From Methylophilus rhizosphaerae (GTDB taxonomy: Bacteria; Pseudomonadota; Gammaproteobacteria; Burkholderiales; Methylophilaceae): a DNA stretch of 64,000 nt. Positions 14,684-32,442 of this stretch are shown here, in pieces. The notes beneath the pieces were generated by a model. The model did no database searches, was not told the DNA's origin, and saw only the letters and a program-made list of their open reading frames with translations. Numbering within the stretch: position 1 is the first letter of the stretch; each line of letters opens with the position of its first letter. The DNA lies in assembly GCF_900100975.1 (NCBI RefSeq), contig NZ_FNFX01000003.1:310001-374000 (forward strand), written 5' to 3'. A program made the translations under genes and the position numbers.

Positions 14684-14712
14684 TTGACTTAATAAATGAG
14701 AAACATTATCAT
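14684..14712 (+). promoter_or_regulatory. Fur-box promoter
   Basis: The -35 TTGACT (14684-14689) and -10 TATCAT (14707-14712) are 17 bp apart. A Fur-like 7-1-7 site TGAGAAACATTATCA (14697-14711) overlaps the -10; 12 of 14 arm bases match TGATAAT-N-ATTATCA. It should give iron-repressed expression of the gene at 14747. Confidence 0.7.
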
Positions 14713-14746
14713 TTACAAAACTTGATTGAATGAAGGTCAGTCCACA

Positions 14747-15055
14747 ATGCAAGCCGATTTCGCCGTGAAAGAAAGTGATCTGTTTGACCCGGACCTGCCG
14801 ACTGCGAGCGCTGTGCTGGTGTCGCTGAGTTGCGTGGCGACGCGGTATGCGACCAATCCTTCCGAGGATCTGGCGTTACTGGGGTGCAGTCTGGCGCAAA
14901 CATTGACTGCGCCGGAGTATGCGGAAAACGGTTTGATTGAATCGGCGGCCAGGCAGTTGTTGCAGGATTGGCAGGCGTTGTTGCAGGCGCACCGCGAATT
15001 TGCCATGCAGCAGGTAGTGACGGATTTTTTGGAGCCTTCTTCAACCATACAATAA
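14747..15055 (+). CDS. Small protein of unknown function under a Fur box
   Basis: A 102-aa protein with no signal peptide or membrane segment. It starts at the ATG at 14747 (an in-frame TTG at 14726 is less likely). It has a helical look: ASAVLVSLSCVATRYA, LALLGCSLAQTL, and ESAARQLLQDWQALLQAHRE. I do not recognise the family. It sits directly behind a Fur-box promoter and opens an iron-uptake region, so it is expected to be made in iron shortage. The next gene (S4 paralog) starts 80 bases later with no terminator between. Confidence 0.7.
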   Translation: MQADFAVKESDLFDPDLPTASAVLVSLSCVATRYATNPSEDLALLGCSLAQTLTAPEYAENGLIESAARQLLQDWQALLQAHREFAMQQVVTDFLEPSSTIQ

Positions 15056-15135: not shown

Positions 15136-15753
15136 ATGGCAAGAACAACGGGACCAAGACTCAAGATTATGCGCGCTTTAGGCGTAGAGCTGCCAGGCTT
15201 GTCACGCAAATCGATTGAAAATCGTCCAAACCCACCAGGCCAGCATGGCAACCAGGCATCGCGTCGTCGTCGTTCGGACTTTGCCGTGAAGTTGATGGAA
15301 AAGCAAAAAATTCGTTTTAACTATGGCGTGAGCGAAAAGCAAATGCGTCGCTTGATGCTGGAAGCCCGTAAAGGTAGCGAGCCAACCGGTGAAAAATTGA
15401 TGTCTTTGCTGGAGCGCCGCCTCGATAACGTAGTGTTCCGGGCCGGATTTGCACCAACAGGTATTTCTGCCCGCCAGCTGGTTAATCACGGACATATCCT
15501 GCTGAATGGTAAATCGGCCAATATTCCATCCATCCGTTTGCAAGTGGGTGACGTGGTGACCTTGAAAGAGAAAAGCCGCAAGATTCCTATCGTGGTTGAA
15601 GCACTGGCAACACCAAGCCTGACTCAGCCTGAGTGGCTGTCCGTGGATAGCACAACAGCGAGCGTGAAAGTCGGTCACTTGCCTTCGATTGAAGATGTGC
15701 CGTTCCCGCTGGATGTGCAACAGGTGGTTGAATATTACGCTAACCGCGTTTAA
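15136..15753 (+). CDS. rpsD: Ribosomal protein S4, divergent stand-alone paralog
   Basis: A 205-aa S4 protein, a primary 16S rRNA binder. It has the N-terminal S4 region (MARTTGPRLKIMRALGVELP, PPGQHG), EKQKIRFNYGVSEKQM, and the S4 RNA-binding domain (RLDNVVFRAGFAPTGISARQ then LVNHGHILLNGK). In betaproteobacteria the main rpsD is in the alpha operon with rpsM, rpsK and rpoA; none of those are here. The GLSRK...PPGQHG and RFNYG/EKQ features look more like cyanobacterial S4 than the E. coli type, from memory. This looks like a second, alternative S4, possibly co-transcribed from the Fur promoter upstream. Confidence 0.93.
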   Translation: MARTTGPRLKIMRALGVELPGLSRKSIENRPNPPGQHGNQASRRRRSDFAVKLMEKQKIRFNYGVSEKQMRRLMLEARKGSEPTGEKLMSLLERRLDNVVFRAGFAPTGISARQLVNHGHILLNGKSANIPSIRLQVGDVVTLKEKSRKIPIVVEALATPSLTQPEWLSVDSTTASVKVGHLPSIEDVPFPLDVQQVVEYYANRV

Positions 15754-15946: not shown

Positions 15947-16183
15947 ATGGGTGGCAAATTGCAATCGTTATCAAACGAGACGGACGTAGTGACAAGTGTT
16001 GCACGTGCTGATGTCTCTGTGGTCGATGCAGCCCACCTGTTGGGAGATGCCGGTGAGCTGGCCATTTTGCATGGTGGCGAAACATATAGGTTAACGCGTA
16101 CCAAGCAGAATAAGTTGCTGCTGACAAAATGCCGCAATATCAGCGCATTTGAGAGTACGCATAAGCTTGATCCGCATCCATGA
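15947..16183 (+). CDS. hemP: Hemin uptake protein HemP
   Basis: A 78-aa protein whose second half carries the HemP signature ILHGGETYRLTRTKQNKLLL followed by TK. HemP proteins are small, Fur-linked partners of hemin/siderophore uptake loci, commonly placed before tonB or receptor genes, as here. The N-terminal 35 residues are not conserved in my recollection, and the ATG at 15947 has AAGG directly adjacent (poor spacing), so a downstream start such as GTG at 15989 is possible. It is followed by tonB-exbB-exbD after a 198-base gap with a palindrome. Confidence 0.75.
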   Translation: MGGKLQSLSNETDVVTSVARADVSVVDAAHLLGDAGELAILHGGETYRLTRTKQNKLLLTKCRNISAFESTHKLDPHP

Positions 16184-16350: not shown

Positions 16351-16381
16351 TCCCTAACAGAAATGAGCGAGGTTTGTGCTG

Positions 16382-17242
16382 ATGTTGCCGCGTGAATCAA
16401 TCAATGCGTTGTCGTTAAAGCCTGCTGTGCCACACAGCTCGCCCGTGCCGCCCCTGAGCCTGCATCACAAGCAGCCTGGGCAACTGGCGGGGGCGTTCCG
16501 CTGGTCCGTGCTGGCCACGGAAGAGTGGCTCCTGCAAAACCGGAGCCAGCGCTGGTATGGGGTGGGTATGCTGGCAGTGGTCGCTCTGCATGCTGCACTG
16601 GTATGGTGGGTGTTTGCACATCATGAAGCATTGATTAAACCGCCTGAACTGACGCCGATGACGGTATCTTTGATTACCCTGCCAGCCAAGAAAGAAGAAG
16701 CACCTGCGCCTGAGGTTGTGCCGATAATCAAGCAAAAACCAGTCATTAAACCTGTCGTCAAACCTAAAGAAACCCCGATGAAACCTGTTGAGCGGCCTGC
16801 GCCTGTGGTGGAGCGTATTGTAGAGCCTGCGCCAGACCAGCCACGTTTTGAGGCAAGTACACAATCTTCACCACCACCGATGGAAGCGCCGGCAGCGGCA
16901 TCCGCCACCCCTGCACCAGTCCCGGCAGCGCCACCCAAGCAGGAAGTCGTGGAGGAAAAAGAGGAGCCACCCAAGTTCGGTGTCGCCTATTTAAAGAACC
17001 CCCCACCGGAATATCCGAGATTATCCAGGCGTGCAGGCGAGGAAGGCCGTGTGTTGTTAAAGGTCCTGGTATCCGCTGAAGGCCGCCCGGATTCGGTGGA
17101 AATTTCAAAAGGCAGTGGTTTTGAGCGTTTGGATACGGCTGCCCTGAATGCGGTCAGGCAATGGCGGTTTGAGCCGGCGCGTAAGGGTGGTAAGGCATTA
17201 AGTGCTTTCGTGATTGTGCCACTGACATTCACATTGAATTAA
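16382..17242 (+). CDS. tonB: TonB energy transducer
   Basis: Links the proton motive force, via ExbB-ExbD, to outer-membrane siderophore receptors. Start chosen at the ATG at 16382 because GAGG lies nine bases before; a GTG two codons upstream is possible. The layout is a cytoplasmic N-terminus of about 58 residues, one membrane helix (about 60-78), a Pro/Lys/Glu-rich periplasmic spacer (about 95-195), and the C-terminal TonB domain (YPRLSRRAGEEGRVLLKVLV ... AVRQWRFEPARKGGKALSAF). It is followed by exbB after 26 bases. Confidence 0.93.
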   Translation: MLPRESINALSLKPAVPHSSPVPPLSLHHKQPGQLAGAFRWSVLATEEWLLQNRSQRWYGVGMLAVVALHAALVWWVFAHHEALIKPPELTPMTVSLITLPAKKEEAPAPEVVPIIKQKPVIKPVVKPKETPMKPVERPAPVVERIVEPAPDQPRFEASTQSSPPPMEAPAAASATPAPVPAAPPKQEVVEEKEEPPKFGVAYLKNPPPEYPRLSRRAGEEGRVLLKVLVSAEGRPDSVEISKGSGFERLDTAALNAVRQWRFEPARKGGKALSAFVIVPLTFTLN

Positions 17243-17268
17243 GATTTAACAGGAAAGGAAGTTTTTAC

Positions 17269-18006
17269 ATGCAATCTACGAGCGGTTTGGCATTTATCAC
17301 CGGAGGCGGTGCAGTCTCAGTCATTGTGGCGCTAACGTTGCTGACCATGTCAGTTTTGAGTTGGTATTTTATCCTGGTGAAGGCTTGGCAAGTACTCAAG
17401 AACAAGCGCCAGGTGACAGCCTATGTGCGCCAGTTCTGGCGTAAATCCACCCTGCAGGAAGCTTTGCAGGATGCACAGCTGCAATCTCCGGCATTCAGGC
17501 TGGTACTGACTGCGGTCGAATCCACCCAGCACCACCAGCAATATGCCAGCCAGTCTTTAGGCGCGGCCTGCAGCCAGGATGAATTCATAGCGCGCCAATT
17601 GCGCCGCACGTTGTCACAAGAGCAAGCCGGTTTGGAAAGCGGCTTGTCTGTGCTGGCTTCCGTGGGCAGCGTGGCTCCTTTTGTTGGCTTGTTCGGTACC
17701 GTATGGGGGATTTACCATGCGCTGACTGCGATTGGCCAGTCTGGCGTGGCTACCATTGATAAAGTGGCCGGCCCGGTCGGTGAAGCCTTGATTATGACTG
17801 CGATTGGCCTGGCAGTGGCGATTCCGGCCGTGCTGGCGTATAACGCTTATATCAAGGCCAACCGTAGCGTGATGGCCGAGCTGGAAAGCTTTGCCCAGGA
17901 TCTGCATACGCTGCTGACAACCGGTGCGCCTTTAATGATAAAGCCTGGCCAGAAATCTAACGTGACGGATATCCACGCCAAAGTGATGAGTAAAGGCAAC
18001 GTATGA
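17269..18006 (+). CDS. exbB: ExbB proton-channel protein (MotA/TolQ/ExbB family)
   Basis: A 245-aa inner-membrane protein with three membrane helices (about residues 15-40, 125-150 and 170-195). The conserved segment is SVAPFVGLFGTVWGIYHALT, then GPVGEALIMTAIGLAVAIPA. It forms the pentameric proton channel with ExbD that drives TonB. It is translationally coupled to exbD: its TGA overlaps the exbD ATG (ATGA). Confidence 0.95.
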   Translation: MQSTSGLAFITGGGAVSVIVALTLLTMSVLSWYFILVKAWQVLKNKRQVTAYVRQFWRKSTLQEALQDAQLQSPAFRLVLTAVESTQHHQQYASQSLGAACSQDEFIARQLRRTLSQEQAGLESGLSVLASVGSVAPFVGLFGTVWGIYHALTAIGQSGVATIDKVAGPVGEALIMTAIGLAVAIPAVLAYNAYIKANRSVMAELESFAQDLHTLLTTGAPLMIKPGQKSNVTDIHAKVMSKGNV

Positions 18007-18422
18007 TAGGCAGCAACCCATTCAGCGCGGGTGAGCACACCCAACCGATGAGCGAGATCAACACGACCCCTTTGGTCGATGTCATGCTGGTGCTGCTGGT
18101 TATTTTCATTATTACGGCGCCTTTGTTGACGCATGCAGTCAAAATTGACCTGCCACAAGCCACCTCACAACCGCTGGAAGAGAAGCCGGAAGTGATTGAC
18201 CTGGCCGTGGATGCTGATGGTAAGCTTTACTGGAATGATGTGGAAGTCGCTAACGATGTGCTGGCTGCACGCTTCCAGGATGAGAGCGCCAAACAGCAGC
18301 AACCTGAATTGCAAATCCGTGCCGATAAAAATACCCGCTACCAGGTATTGGCAGACGTGCTGGCAAAAGCGCAAACTGCTGGTATGAAAAAAGTCGGCTT
18401 TGTCAGCCAGCCACAGCCATAA
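18003..18422 (+). CDS. exbD: ExbD biopolymer transport protein
   Basis: A 139-aa protein with one N-terminal membrane helix. It has the family's proton-carrying Asp in INTTPLVDVMLVLLVIFIIT (Asp at about residue 25) and a periplasmic domain ending in KAQTAGMKKVGFVSQP. It overlaps exbB by 4 bases. Confidence 0.95.
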   Translation: MIGSNPFSAGEHTQPMSEINTTPLVDVMLVLLVIFIITAPLLTHAVKIDLPQATSQPLEEKPEVIDLAVDADGKLYWNDVEVANDVLAARFQDESAKQQQPELQIRADKNTRYQVLADVLAKAQTAGMKKVGFVSQPQP

Positions 18423-18446: not shown

Positions 18447-19595
18447 ATGCAACGGAAAACCATCCGGCGCTGGGCATGGGTTCACAAATGGTCCAGCCTT
18501 GTCTGTACCGTGTTCATGCTGCTGTTGTGCCTGACCGGCCTGCCACTCGTTTTCAGTGACGAAATTCATGACTGGGTGGGTGATCATATTGCCACACCCG
18601 AGATTCAGCATACCGGCCCTATGGCCAGCATGGATACCTTGCTGGCGGCTGCAAAATCACGGAATCCTGGCTACGTGCCGCTGTATATGTTCCGTGACGA
18701 AGACGAGCCTTTGCAATGGACCATCAGCATGGGCAAAACAGCCGATGCCACCACTGGCATCCGGTATGTGGTCATGGATGCACGCACTGCGCAGGTACTG
18801 GGTGAGCCGCCGGCAGAGCAAGGCTTTATGTATGTGATGTTCAAGCTGCATACCGATTTATTTGCTGGGTTGCCGGGCATGCTATTTCTGGGGGTAATGG
18901 GGCTTCTTCTGGTGATCGCCATTATTTCCGGTGTGGTGCTGTACGCGCCTTTTATGCACAAACTGTCTTTTGGCGATATACGGCATCAGCGCGGGGAGAA
19001 GCTGAAGCGCCTGGATATCCATAATATGCTGGGCATCGTTACCCTGAGCTGGTTTTTCGTGGTGGGGGCTACCGGTGTGATCAATACCTGGGCAGACCTG
19101 CTGGTGACCTACTGGCAGTCCGACCAGATGGCGCAAATGATTGCGCCTTATAAGAATTTACCGCCACCGACACAGTTTGCATCACTACAACAATCCATGG
19201 ATGTGGCACAAAAAACTGAGCCCGATATGCAACTGGGATTTATTGCATTTCCCGGTACCGGTTATACCAGCCAGCATCATTACGGCATTTTTATGCGCGG
19301 GGATACGCCGTTGACCAAACGCTTGTTCAAACCCGTGTTAATTGATGCACAAACGGCCACATTGACTGACAGCCGACCTTTACCGTGGTACCTGGTGGCA
19401 TTGCTGGTTTCACAGCCTTTGCATTTTGGTGATTACGGTGGCATGTCGTTGAAGTGGATATGGCTGGTGCTCGATATCCTGAGTATCGTGGTGTTATGGA
19501 CCGGCCTCAAAATCTGGTGGAAAAAACGCCATCAGGTCATGCCGGCCATTTATGTTGACAGCATGGCGCACAGGATGCAGCCGCATCAGGGGTAA
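18447..19595 (+). CDS. PepSY-associated transmembrane protein (iron-regulated type)
   Basis: A 382-aa inner-membrane protein of the PepSY_TM family. A first helix follows WAWVHKWSSLVCTVFMLLLC (about residues 15-35). A periplasmic part contains a PepSY-like stretch (RYVVMDARTAQVLGEPPAEQ). Helices then lie at about 145-172, 195-220 and near the C-terminus (LVLDILSIVVLWTGLKIWWK then KR). Such proteins often sit in siderophore loci and are proposed to pass electrons or act in ferric reduction; conserved histidines lie at helix ends (VHKWSS, KLHTD, DIHNM, PLHFGD). It follows exbD by 24 bases and is followed without gap by a small membrane gene. Confidence 0.88.
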   Translation: MQRKTIRRWAWVHKWSSLVCTVFMLLLCLTGLPLVFSDEIHDWVGDHIATPEIQHTGPMASMDTLLAAAKSRNPGYVPLYMFRDEDEPLQWTISMGKTADATTGIRYVVMDARTAQVLGEPPAEQGFMYVMFKLHTDLFAGLPGMLFLGVMGLLLVIAIISGVVLYAPFMHKLSFGDIRHQRGEKLKRLDIHNMLGIVTLSWFFVVGATGVINTWADLLVTYWQSDQMAQMIAPYKNLPPPTQFASLQQSMDVAQKTEPDMQLGFIAFPGTGYTSQHHYGIFMRGDTPLTKRLFKPVLIDAQTATLTDSRPLPWYLVALLVSQPLHFGDYGGMSLKWIWLVLDILSIVVLWTGLKIWWKKRHQVMPAIYVDSMAHRMQPHQG

Positions 19596-19903: not shown

Positions 19904-20377
19904 ATGCGAAAAAAAGTAACACAATGGTCACAAGGGCTGGCAATATTGGCAAGCACAATGTGTCTGATGCAAGCAACCGCACATGCAGCAGACCGCTGTG
20001 ATGTGACAGTAGAAGCCACGGATGCCATGACCTTCAACACCAAAGAAATTTCGGTGCCCAAAAGCTGCAAGGCTTTTACGGTCAATCTTAAGCACACTGG
20101 CAAGATGAGCAAAAACATCATGGGCCATAACCTGGTCATCAGCAAACAAGCCGATGAACAAGCGGTGCTGCAAGACGGCAGTAAAGTAGGCGTTACACAG
20201 TCATTTGTCAAACCACAAGATGCGCGTGTAGTCGCTGCGACGACCATCGTGGGTGGTGGTGAAAGTGCCAGTACCTCATTTGCGCCATCGCAACTAGACG
20301 CCGCCGGTAGCTATGTGTTCTTCTGTTCCTTCCCTGGCCATGCTTCCATGATGAAGGGTACCCTCAAACTCATTTAA
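19904..20377 (+). CDS. azu: Azurin (blue copper protein)
   Basis: Periplasmic type 1 copper electron carrier. The 157-aa precursor has a signal peptide cut after AHA (about residue 28). Copper ligands are His75, Cys141, His146 and Met150; with an offset of 29 these are the standard azurin His46, Cys112, His117 and Met121. The structural disulfide is Cys32-Cys55. GGAG lies 7 bases before the ATG. It sits between the TonB gene set and a siderophore receptor and ends at a strong hairpin. An electron partner is not identifiable from context. Confidence 0.96.
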
Positions 20378-20596: not shown

Positions 20597-20626
20597 TTGA
20601 TTTCACGAATGATAATTATTATCATT
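20597..20626 (+). promoter_or_regulatory. Fur-box promoter of the siderophore receptor
   Basis: AATGATAATTATTATCATT (20608-20626) is a perfect 9-1-9 palindrome and an excellent Fur box. The -35 TTGATT (20597-20602) and -10 TATCAT (20620-20625) are 17 bp apart, so the right half of the box is the -10. Confidence 0.88.
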
Positions 20627-20710
20627 AAAGTCAATTAGAGCAATTAAATGACTACAAAAATAGTGGCCTTCCTGTTAACCCTGACCTTCAATTGAATGCA
20701 GAGGATCTCA

Positions 20711-22792
20711 ATGACTTTTATCAATAAAAATAAACAATCCGGCACATATTTATTACCCAAGAGAAGTGTAGTGGCGGTGTTACTGGCTTTTGCAGCAAGC
20801 CCGGTACTCGCGGCGGATGCGGAAGCAGAACAAAAAGGAACTGTGACCCTGGATGAGGTGGCTGTCGTCGGGTCAGCAGATAAATCCGGAGACAATTTCA
20901 AATCATCTGCCCAATCTGTTTCTATCATTAATGAGCAAGATATTAGAAGCATTGGTGCCAATAAAAAACTGGATGATTTGCTGGGTTATGAGGCGGGGGT
21001 GCTATCAAAACAGTTTGGTGCTGATAACAAATCCAACTGGTTCCAGGTCAGAGGTTTTGATGCCAATACCACATTAGATGGCACTTCCATATCGAACAAT
21101 GGATTCTTCGTTTGGGAACAGGAAATTTACGGGTTGGAGAAGGTGGAGGTTCTTAAAGGAGCTAACTCTTTCAATTATGGCGCGACGGATGCTGGCGGCA
21201 CTATTAACTTGGTATCCAAGCGTCCTATGACAGATGTTGCAGGTGAACTCAATGTCAGTGTTGGTAATTTCGACAGAAGAACAGTCAGTGGTGATTACAA
21301 TGGCATTATTAATGACTCGGTACGTTATCGCTTAGTTGGTCTCTATTCCAAAGGCGACTTTCCAATCCATTATACTGGGATGGAGCAATTTTATTTTGCA
21401 CCTAGCCTCACTTGGGATATTACAGATCACACTAGCCTCACCGTTTTAGCAAGCATGCTCAAGAAAAAGGGCACGCCGACCAATGGCTTTATGCCAGCTT
21501 ATGGTTCTCTAACTGGAACACCATACGGCAAAATCGGTTACCACACCAATCTTGGGGAACCTGACCGCGATTATTTTGACCGCAAGCAATATTCGCTTGG
21601 TTATGAATTTAGTCACGATTTCGGGCAACAGTTCAAATTTACGCAAAACTATCGCTATGGCAAGATGGATCATGATTTCGTGGGAGTATTTGCCTGGGGG
21701 TCAGATAATGATAGGCTTGCCCATCGCGGTTATTCCTATCTCAATGGGAACTCAACAGTTCATAGTATAGATAATCGCCTAAGCAAAACATTTGCCTTTG
21801 GCGAATTTATAGATACTTTTATGGTCGGGCTTGACTATAAGCGCAGCAAAGCGGACGCAAAGAATAACGGCTTTGGGTTTGTGCCGGATATTGACATGTT
21901 TAATCCTGTTTACGGTGCACCTTTTACCGTTACTGGCAATCCATATGATCTCAGTTTGAAGCAACAGGGTACCTATATATTCAATAAACTAGATTGGAAC
22001 GATACGGTTTTAGTCAATTTAGGTCTTCGACACGATCGCTATGACAATAGCTCCTATATTGGATTAGTGCGTAATGCTGATGACGGCGACAAGAATACTC
22101 ATAATGTCAGCATTATGGTACGCACGCCGCTTGGCTTATCCCCTTATGTTAGTCACTCAACTTCCTTTAACCCACAATTGGGCTCAGATGGATATGGCCG
22201 AGGATACAAACCATTTGAAGGGAAGCAATGGGAAGTCGGGATGAAATATGAGCCCACCTGGATGAAGGCCAGTTTCAATCTGGCATTGTTTGATTTAACA
22301 GAAAAAAATGCCTTGATTGCAGATGCGTCAAATATTCAGATACAAGCAGGTGAGCGACGTAACCGCGGTATAGAACTACAGTCTGATTGGCTGCTTAGTG
22401 ATAGCGTTTCTGCCAGAGTAAGTTATACGCGTAACAATGCTGAACAGGATCTCAGTGTAACCCAAACAGTGAGAGCCCCACTCATCCCTGATAACCAGGC
22501 GGCTGTCAAAATCAGTTATAAGCGCCTTCAGAGCGATATATTGAATGGTCTCAAGTTGACGTTTGGTATTCGCTACAATGGAAGTACCGAGGATCAACGC
22601 TATTATCCTGGTCAGAAAGTACCGTCTTATACCCTGGTGGATGCCATGGCAAGTTATCCAGTTTCACAACACTGGAACTTGCAGGTTAATGCGACTAACT
22701 TATTCAACAAAGAATACCTCAGTGCGTGTGACTTTTATTGCTACTACGGTACTTCCCGTACTGTCGATGCGCAGTTAAGCTATTTGTGGTAA
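20711..22792 (+). CDS. TonB-dependent siderophore receptor
   Basis: A 693-aa outer-membrane receptor, starting at the ATG at 20711 behind GAGG six bases upstream (an in-frame ATG 15 bases earlier has no site). The signal peptide ends at VLAA. The TonB-box region reads TVTLDEVAVVG. The plug (about residues 55-165) includes WFQVRGFDANTTLDG and VEVLKGANSFNYGATDAGGT. The 22-strand barrel ends in LSYLW with C-terminal aromatic. The CDFYCYYGTSR turn is typical of FhuE/FoxA/FpvA-type ferric-siderophore receptors; the substrate is unknown. By eye it is more AT-rich than its neighbours, so recent transfer is possible. Confidence 0.93.
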   Translation: MTFINKNKQSGTYLLPKRSVVAVLLAFAASPVLAADAEAEQKGTVTLDEVAVVGSADKSGDNFKSSAQSVSIINEQDIRSIGANKKLDDLLGYEAGVLSKQFGADNKSNWFQVRGFDANTTLDGTSISNNGFFVWEQEIYGLEKVEVLKGANSFNYGATDAGGTINLVSKRPMTDVAGELNVSVGNFDRRTVSGDYNGIINDSVRYRLVGLYSKGDFPIHYTGMEQFYFAPSLTWDITDHTSLTVLASMLKKKGTPTNGFMPAYGSLTGTPYGKIGYHTNLGEPDRDYFDRKQYSLGYEFSHDFGQQFKFTQNYRYGKMDHDFVGVFAWGSDNDRLAHRGYSYLNGNSTVHSIDNRLSKTFAFGEFIDTFMVGLDYKRSKADAKNNGFGFVPDIDMFNPVYGAPFTVTGNPYDLSLKQQGTYIFNKLDWNDTVLVNLGLRHDRYDNSSYIGLVRNADDGDKNTHNVSIMVRTPLGLSPYVSHSTSFNPQLGSDGYGRGYKPFEGKQWEVGMKYEPTWMKASFNLALFDLTEKNALIADASNIQIQAGERRNRGIELQSDWLLSDSVSARVSYTRNNAEQDLSVTQTVRAPLIPDNQAAVKISYKRLQSDILNGLKLTFGIRYNGSTEDQRYYPGQKVPSYTLVDAMASYPVSQHWNLQVNATNLFNKEYLSACDFYCYYGTSRTVDAQLSYLW

Positions 22793-27913: not shown

Positions 27914-27935
27914 AATGAGAACCAATATCATTATA
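27914..27935 (-). promoter_or_regulatory. Fur-like box and -10 of the PepSY/DUF2271/ApbE operon
   Basis: TGAGAACCAATATCA (27916-27930) matches 11 of 14 arm bases of a Fur 7-1-7 site. On the minus strand a perfect TATAAT (27930-27935) lies at its edge; the -35 is poor. Binding here would block the operon that starts at 27845. The gap from 27846 to 28048 holds nothing else recognisable. Confidence 0.6.
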
Positions 27936-32412: not shown

Positions 32413-32442
32413 AATGATAACAGTTCTCATTTATAATTACAA
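32413..32442 (-). promoter_or_regulatory. Fur-box promoter of the Fiu-like receptor operon
   Basis: AATGATAACAGTTCTCATT (32413-32431) has 11 of 14 core Fur arm bases. On the minus strand TTGTAA (32437-32442), a 17-bp spacer and TATCAT (32414-32419) form a promoter, again with the -10 inside the box. It lies in the 424-base gap before the tolC-like gene, where I see nothing else but the next site. Confidence 0.75.

Follow-up and report, generated by a model that had tools for sequence, protein, structure and literature searches.

The S4b locus and its Fur box

The window analysed here, a 64,000-nucleotide stretch of the Methylophilus rhizosphaerae genome, contains an open reading frame (15136..15753, + strand) encoding an intact, full-length bacterial uS4 of 205 aa, which we call S4b and which matches the rpsD profile TIGR01017 over its full length (227.5 bits; cut-off 177.2) as well as PF00163 and PF01479, both above cut-off. 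The search for S4 in the source genome (2.76 Mb, 99.99% complete) yielded two PF00163 matches (E<=0.001), S4b and a gene on contig 9 that is flanked by rpsK and rpoA and represents the alpha-operon S4, hereafter S4a. The initial annotation had described the window gene as an S4 paralog outside the alpha operon, which proved right, and S4b is not the only S4 gene in its genome. What that annotation overlooked is the main contrast between the two proteins, namely that the resident S4a has the cysteines of a metal cluster, arranged near its start as CxxC...CxxxxC (the C+ pattern), while S4b contains no cysteine. In addition, PGQHG begins at residue 34 in S4b and at residue 40 in S4a, S4b having six residues fewer.

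The occurrence of a second, cysteine-free S4 is as such a published phenomenon. Chen, Roberts and Luthey-Schulten (2009; PMC3087516) defined C+ and C- forms of S4 and described C-(IV) S4 as encoded outside the alpha operon, with Nitrosomonas europaea possessing both S4 forms and Methylobacillus flagellatus only C-(IV), in two identical copies within a 140-kb repeat. Compared with their description, the profile matches, the tree and the cysteine count assign S4b to the C-(IV) type, as it combines zero cysteines with the absence of the seven-residue insert, the presence of PGQHG and a leucine at position 15, where L or F is expected. Like the C-(IV) proteins described there, S4b lacks the zinc-finger cysteines, has a shorter N-terminus and is placed near Cyanobacteria, and its gene lies outside the alpha operon, either beside a C+ S4 or as the sole S4. 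Unlike in the zinc-centered discussion of these authors, S4b has iron genes as neighbours and a conserved Fur box in front of it. Thus, the protein class of S4b is already known, while its regulatory setting and the reading proposed below are new.

S4b does not stand alone, as had been annotated initially, but probably forms an operon with ORF1 (14747..15055, + strand), which comes first and encodes a small protein of 102 aa from its ATG, with a TTG start also possible at 14726. No family was found for ORF1 in Pfam, and none in NCBIfam at E<=0.001 (one sub-cut-off NCBIfam match had an E-value of 0.049), and its single-sequence AlphaFold model was helical but poor (mean pLDDT 55.7). Elsewhere in the genome, a perfect Fur box precedes a group of small ORFs that includes a paralog of ORF1 (L053:3337-3633, - strand; L077). 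A putative sigma-70-like promoter of the ORF1-S4b operon, TTGACT-17-TATCAT (14684..14712, + strand), agrees with the consensus at 10 of 12 positions; because the promoter scan overall was no better than shuffles (2 promoter-like sites versus a shuffle mean of 2.3, i.e., no excess), this call rests on its position and on the overlapping Fur box. The latter, AATGATAATGTTTCTCATT (14695..14713, - strand), lies over the spacer and the -10 element, matches the 17-mer Fur core without mismatch and the 19-mer pattern with 0-1, and ends 33 bp before the start codon of ORF1.

A scan for Fur-type boxes gave 7 matches to the 17-mer core (<=2 mismatches) in the window compared to 0.43 expected, and 25 matches to the 19-mer pattern (<=2 mismatches) at 16 places in the whole genome compared to 2 for the reversed pattern. 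Ten places carry a box with 0-1 mismatch: one at the S4b operon, one before the TonB-dependent receptor of the window, three before ECF sigma genes, one before a PepSY gene, one before the operon of the ORF1 paralog, one that separates a receptor-like ORF from a gene for outer-membrane efflux, one downstream of a ferritin-like gene, and the unassigned site L082. Two further boxes in the window, each with 1 mismatch, are located at 27914-27932 and 32413-32431, one before a PepSY gene and one between a receptor-like ORF and an outer-membrane efflux gene. Two Fur-family proteins are encoded in the genome, with scores of 161 bits and, more weakly, 34 bits. Downstream of S4b and on the same strand follow hemP for a hemin uptake protein (15947..16183; PF10636, 51.8 bits), tonB, exbB and exbD (16376..18422; PF03544, PF01618, PF02472), and genes for a PepSY_TM protein (18447..19595; PF03929), an azurin-type cupredoxin (19904..20377; PF00127) and a TonB-dependent receptor (20696..22792; PF00593, PF07715), the last preceded by a palindromic Fur box with 0 mismatches on both strands (20608..20626). 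S4b is hence a predicted member of the Fur regulon, as judged from the box over its promoter, and the iron context suggested in the initial annotation is corroborated by this box and by its conservation in related genomes.

Distribution of S4a, S4b and the Fur box within the family

Among 120 genomes of the family, S4b was detected in 50 (65-100% identical), 42 of which also contain S4a and eight of which do not; 62 genomes gave only weaker S4 matches of the S4a type, and eight gave no match at E<=1e-10. A swap between the two forms is thus not essential, as the 62 genomes have S4 matches but no S4b. Three of these 62 (G094, G098 and G104) have another second S4, which in G094 (L072; G094:C5) is 59% identical to S4a, sits on a contig of 6 kb in a genome of 81% completeness, and may be a contamination. 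With three further genomes containing both S4s (G120, G122 and G127), 53 genomes with 54 S4b copies were examined. All 53 S4b rows are devoid of cysteine in the first 45 residues, and S4b was free of internal stops in all 50 carriers among the 120 genomes. The CxxC...CxxxxC motif was in turn found in 70 of 70 S4a sequences of the family, derived from 26 genomes without S4b and from all but one of the 45 with both forms, the S4a of G127 having been left out of this count as a fragment at a contig edge.

Of the 45 genomes with both S4s, 44 had a Fur box with at most 2 mismatches to the 19-mer within 700 bp upstream of S4b (0 mismatches in 25 genomes, 1 in 16 and 2 in three), a result that was reached by only 0.11% of 900 shuffles under the same criterion. 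ORF1 adjoins S4b, on the S4b side of the box, in 44 of these 45 genomes. The one exception, G011, lacks ORF1 as well as any box in the 700 bp before S4b; its nearest boxes are found about 4 kb (2 mismatches) and about 7 kb (1 mismatch) upstream, and its S4b forms the end of a cluster, read by eye as tonB-exbB-exbD-receptor, with the boxes at the cluster head. The order ORF1-S4b-hemP-tonB occurred in at least one genome of seven of the 12 genera with S4b, many of the stretches being too short for the whole cluster.

A different situation is found in the eight genomes with S4b and without S4a, in which rpoA directly follows rpsK in every case (8/8) and S4b, 70-71% identical to the window copy, is the only S4, so that it must be the ribosomal S4 there. 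These orthologs can therefore do the ribosomal job, and the window copy, by extension from them, is probably able to do so too. For the nine S4b copies in these genomes, the 700 bp upstream contain no box (the best sites have 5-7 mismatches), and none of the copies adjoins ORF1 (0/9); one of the genomes, G016, carries an atypical site with 1 mismatch 966 bp before S4b. In seven of the eight genomes a 15-mer box with 1 mismatch is located at +734 to +808 from the S4b start, before tonB-exbBD, whereas G001 has no such box between S4b and tonB-exbBD. With a box before tonB and none upstream of S4b, tonB has kept its Fur box and S4b has not. Repeated losses of S4a and of the box were considered and rejected, since all eight genomes belong to one clade and require one change on the tree; the absence of the box is one evolutionary event and not eight. 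One of the eight, G062, carries S4b twice, at a distance of 143 kb, and resembles Methylobacillus flagellatus in this respect. The clade without S4a represents a natural complementation.

Relatives of S4b and a probable second capture

Cyanobacterial affinity of S4b had been suggested in the initial annotation, and a tree of 83 rows (a quick build with SH-aLRT as the only support measure and several long end branches) agrees with it. S4b falls inside a 29-row clade (SH-aLRT 96) alongside S4s from other betaproteobacteria, Myxococcota, Bdellovibrionota and further groups, and this clade forms, together with 13 Cyanobacteria and one long-branched MAG (L268), a group of 43 with support 99 whose internal branching is not resolved, such that S4b stands beside the Cyanobacteria and is not nested within them. 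The 14 four-cysteine S4s of the family and the order are separate from this group (100); the window S4 is accordingly not placed with the ordinary S4s of its family or order. A transfer of C-(IV) S4 from Cyanobacteria was proposed earlier by Chen et al. (2009; PMC3087516). A plastid-like character of S4b was not favored by the nearest solved structures, as the first chloroplast entry ranked only 26th of 44 PDB sequences by E-value; the cyanobacterial claim therefore rests on the tree.

Outside the family, S4b was found in 10 genomes among 399 genomes of the order, eight of which also have a second, S4a-type match (with the four-cysteine motif in 4 of 4 checked), the other two being only 78% and 64% complete. 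Within 1400 bp upstream, a 15-mer box with at most 1 mismatch was present at four of the order-level loci (G250, G426, G236 and G480, in the latter two about 1.2 kb upstream) and a 2-mismatch box at two (G132 and G459), while none was present at G340, G354 and G398 (1400 bp) or at G508 (864 bp). In a further family, f21, S4b occurred in 42 of 150 genomes, and a box lay within 700 bp at nine of 30 loci inspected when at most 1 mismatch was allowed (compared with 0 of 600 shuffles) and at 13 when at most 2 were allowed (1.3% of shuffles), leaving 17 of 30 without a box of <=2 mismatches in 700 bp. The corresponding numbers for 28 control S4s from the phylum search were 0 and 1 (shuffles 0.4% and 4.6%). 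At eight of the 30 f21 loci, tblastn with the window proteins detected exbBD, a TonB receptor or hemP within flanks of about 1.5 kb. In Methyloversatilis universalis, a box with 1 mismatch precedes S4b by 455 bp, and eight other loci read alongside it (L261-L268) have none with <=1 mismatch. Pfam matches of hand-picked neighbours, a list that does not represent a count and beside which a number of loci showed no iron gene, comprised hemP (G236, L381, L387), TonB receptors (G340, L365, L368), FTR1 (L369), ferritin-like proteins (L261, L387), PepSY (L229, L230) and MotA/ExbB (L237, L372). S4b is thus accompanied by boxes and iron genes outside its family as well, though with a patchy distribution. 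The similar-looking small ORFs next to S4b at loci of other families were not classed as ORF1 homologs, since an ORF1 profile gave 0 matches at E<1 and 0 in four rounds. Other neighbours include PEP-CTERM proteins downstream of S4b in L371 and L374, and a DUF2325 protein after S4b in Uliginosibacterium (L261:5707-7017), with look-alikes by appearance beside S4b in L228, L235, L382 and L385.

Another S4 without the four-cysteine motif, termed S4c, was detected in nine genomes out of 187 from the family (65-100% identical to the G104 copy); the nine belong to a single other genus, whose genomes are small. S4c is about 41% identical to S4b and has one cysteine among its first 45 residues. In the tree, it clusters with S4s from distant families of the phylum (support 100), which are tentatively regarded as alphaproteobacterial, a guess based on a sequence motif. 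In eight of the nine genomes a 15-mer box with 0-1 mismatch lies 549-585 bp upstream of S4c, the G895 locus having no box in 727 bp upstream, and an ORF of about 160 aa precedes S4c in eight of nine (absent in G891), box and ORF occurring together in seven. G104 and G098 retain a four-cysteine S4a beside S4c. A cupredoxin-type ORF closely follows S4c in seven of nine genomes (PF00127 in a Pfam run on one of them, G104) and an azurin-type cupredoxin lies between the PepSY gene and the TonB receptor in the window, as if copper carriers replaced iron ones.

A proposed iron-dependent exchange of S4 and its alternatives

The reading that we favor, with a probability of roughly two in three, is that S4b is a working, cofactor-free S4 that is derepressed by Fur and replaces an Fe-S-containing S4a during iron starvation. 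In Thermus uS4, an Fe4S4 cluster is bound by the 'Zn-finger', as confirmed by long-wavelength X-ray data (Rozov et al., 2019, crediting the Steitz group; PMC6555806) and likewise stated in PMC10450194. Iron in S4a is predicted from the likeness of its four cysteines to those of Thermus uS4, and in a mesophile the motif may hold zinc instead. If S4a is like Thermus uS4, a cysteine-free S4 under the control of Fur would provide what is required for an iron-sparing swap. When iron is sufficient, Fe-Fur would occupy the box over the ORF1-S4b promoter and S4b would be off; when iron falls, Fur would leave and S4b would be made together with the hemP, TonB and ExbBD uptake functions, so that new 30S subunits would assemble with S4b. 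Ribosome assembly could then proceed without Fe-S maturation, saving up to four iron atoms per ribosome. A failed S4a maturation, by comparison, would stop ribosome building, because 30S assembly cannot begin without S4 (PMC3087516). Binding of Fur, induction of S4b at low iron and its incorporation into ribosomes are here predicted from the genomes.

That the exchanged metal is zinc and not iron, with S4a holding zinc and S4b serving as a zinc-free backup under Zur like the L31 and S14 paralogs, would fit with the classification of S4 into zinc and non-zinc forms by Chen et al. (2009; PMC3087516) and with the second, weaker Fur-family gene, possibly a Zur. We nevertheless consider it unlikely, since the conserved box is of the Fur type, the cluster of Thermus uS4 contains iron (PMC6555806), and Zur-like GTTATANTATAAC upstream of S4b, searched with one simple consensus in the 45 genomes with both S4s, was no better than shuffles (best 3-6 mismatches); Chen et al., who thought of zinc, likewise found no Zur site near S4 paralogs (PMC3087516). 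It is similarly improbable that a redundant S4b simply came into an iron-uptake operon without any adaptive swap. Although the gene order with hemP-tonB-exbBD is often kept, so that the neighbours could account for box conservation, and many genomes do without S4b, the gene remains intact in its carriers, S4b and S4c, which are unrelated to each other and both lack the four cysteines, are found behind Fur boxes with different neighbours, and in the clade with S4b as sole S4 tonB has a box whereas none is left within 700 bp upstream of S4b.

A role of S4b in tuning the speed or accuracy of translation, or outside the ribosome, under iron stress, with the lack of cysteines being incidental, appears still more improbable. 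S4 is an accuracy and mRNA-binding protein (PMC3087516), and two S4 paralogs of Myxococcus xanthus change differently during development (PMC6791715), but the orthologs in the eight S4a-less genomes work as a general S4, and cysteines are missing from all 53 S4b rows of the family where the cluster would be. An extra accuracy or extra-ribosomal role is not needed to explain S4b, although S4b may have one. Concerning earlier reports on the iron-responsive S4 exchange favored here, the accessible text of a Fur study in N. europaea (PMC3050691) reports no S4 induction and contains no word beginning with 'ribosom', and no paper connecting Fur or iron to an S4 paralog was found among the matches listed in a literature search, which were mostly titles and beginnings of abstracts, with subscription journals and preprints thinly covered.

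The proposed iron-dependent exchange has parallels in known systems. As in the Zur-controlled paralogs of L31, S14 and L33, a metal-free paralog of a metal-binding ribosomal protein would be kept off by a repressor of the Fur superfamily when the metal is plentiful; unlike in these cases, the regulator and metal would be Fur and iron instead of Zur and zinc, and the exchanged S4 is a primary 30S assembly protein carrying the motif that holds [4Fe-4S] in Thermus. Fur-controlled, iron-sparing isozyme swaps are represented by FumC for Fe-S fumarase and MnSOD for FeSOD. S4b resembles these in that an iron-free isoform would be derepressed at low iron, but the part swapped is a core ribosomal protein and not an enzyme.

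On a wider scale, we lean towards a scenario in which several betaproteobacterial lineages captured a cluster-free S4, at least twice and from different donors, and put it under Fur to obtain iron-sparing ribosomes, and in which the spare replaced the original for good in one clade and left the Fur regulon. If the iron-sparing reading is true, metal-dependent ribosome remodelling would be extended from zinc to iron, the puzzling Fe-S cluster of bacterial uS4 would gain a testable physiological role as a liability in iron starvation, and the repeated capture of cluster-free S4 genes would be explained.
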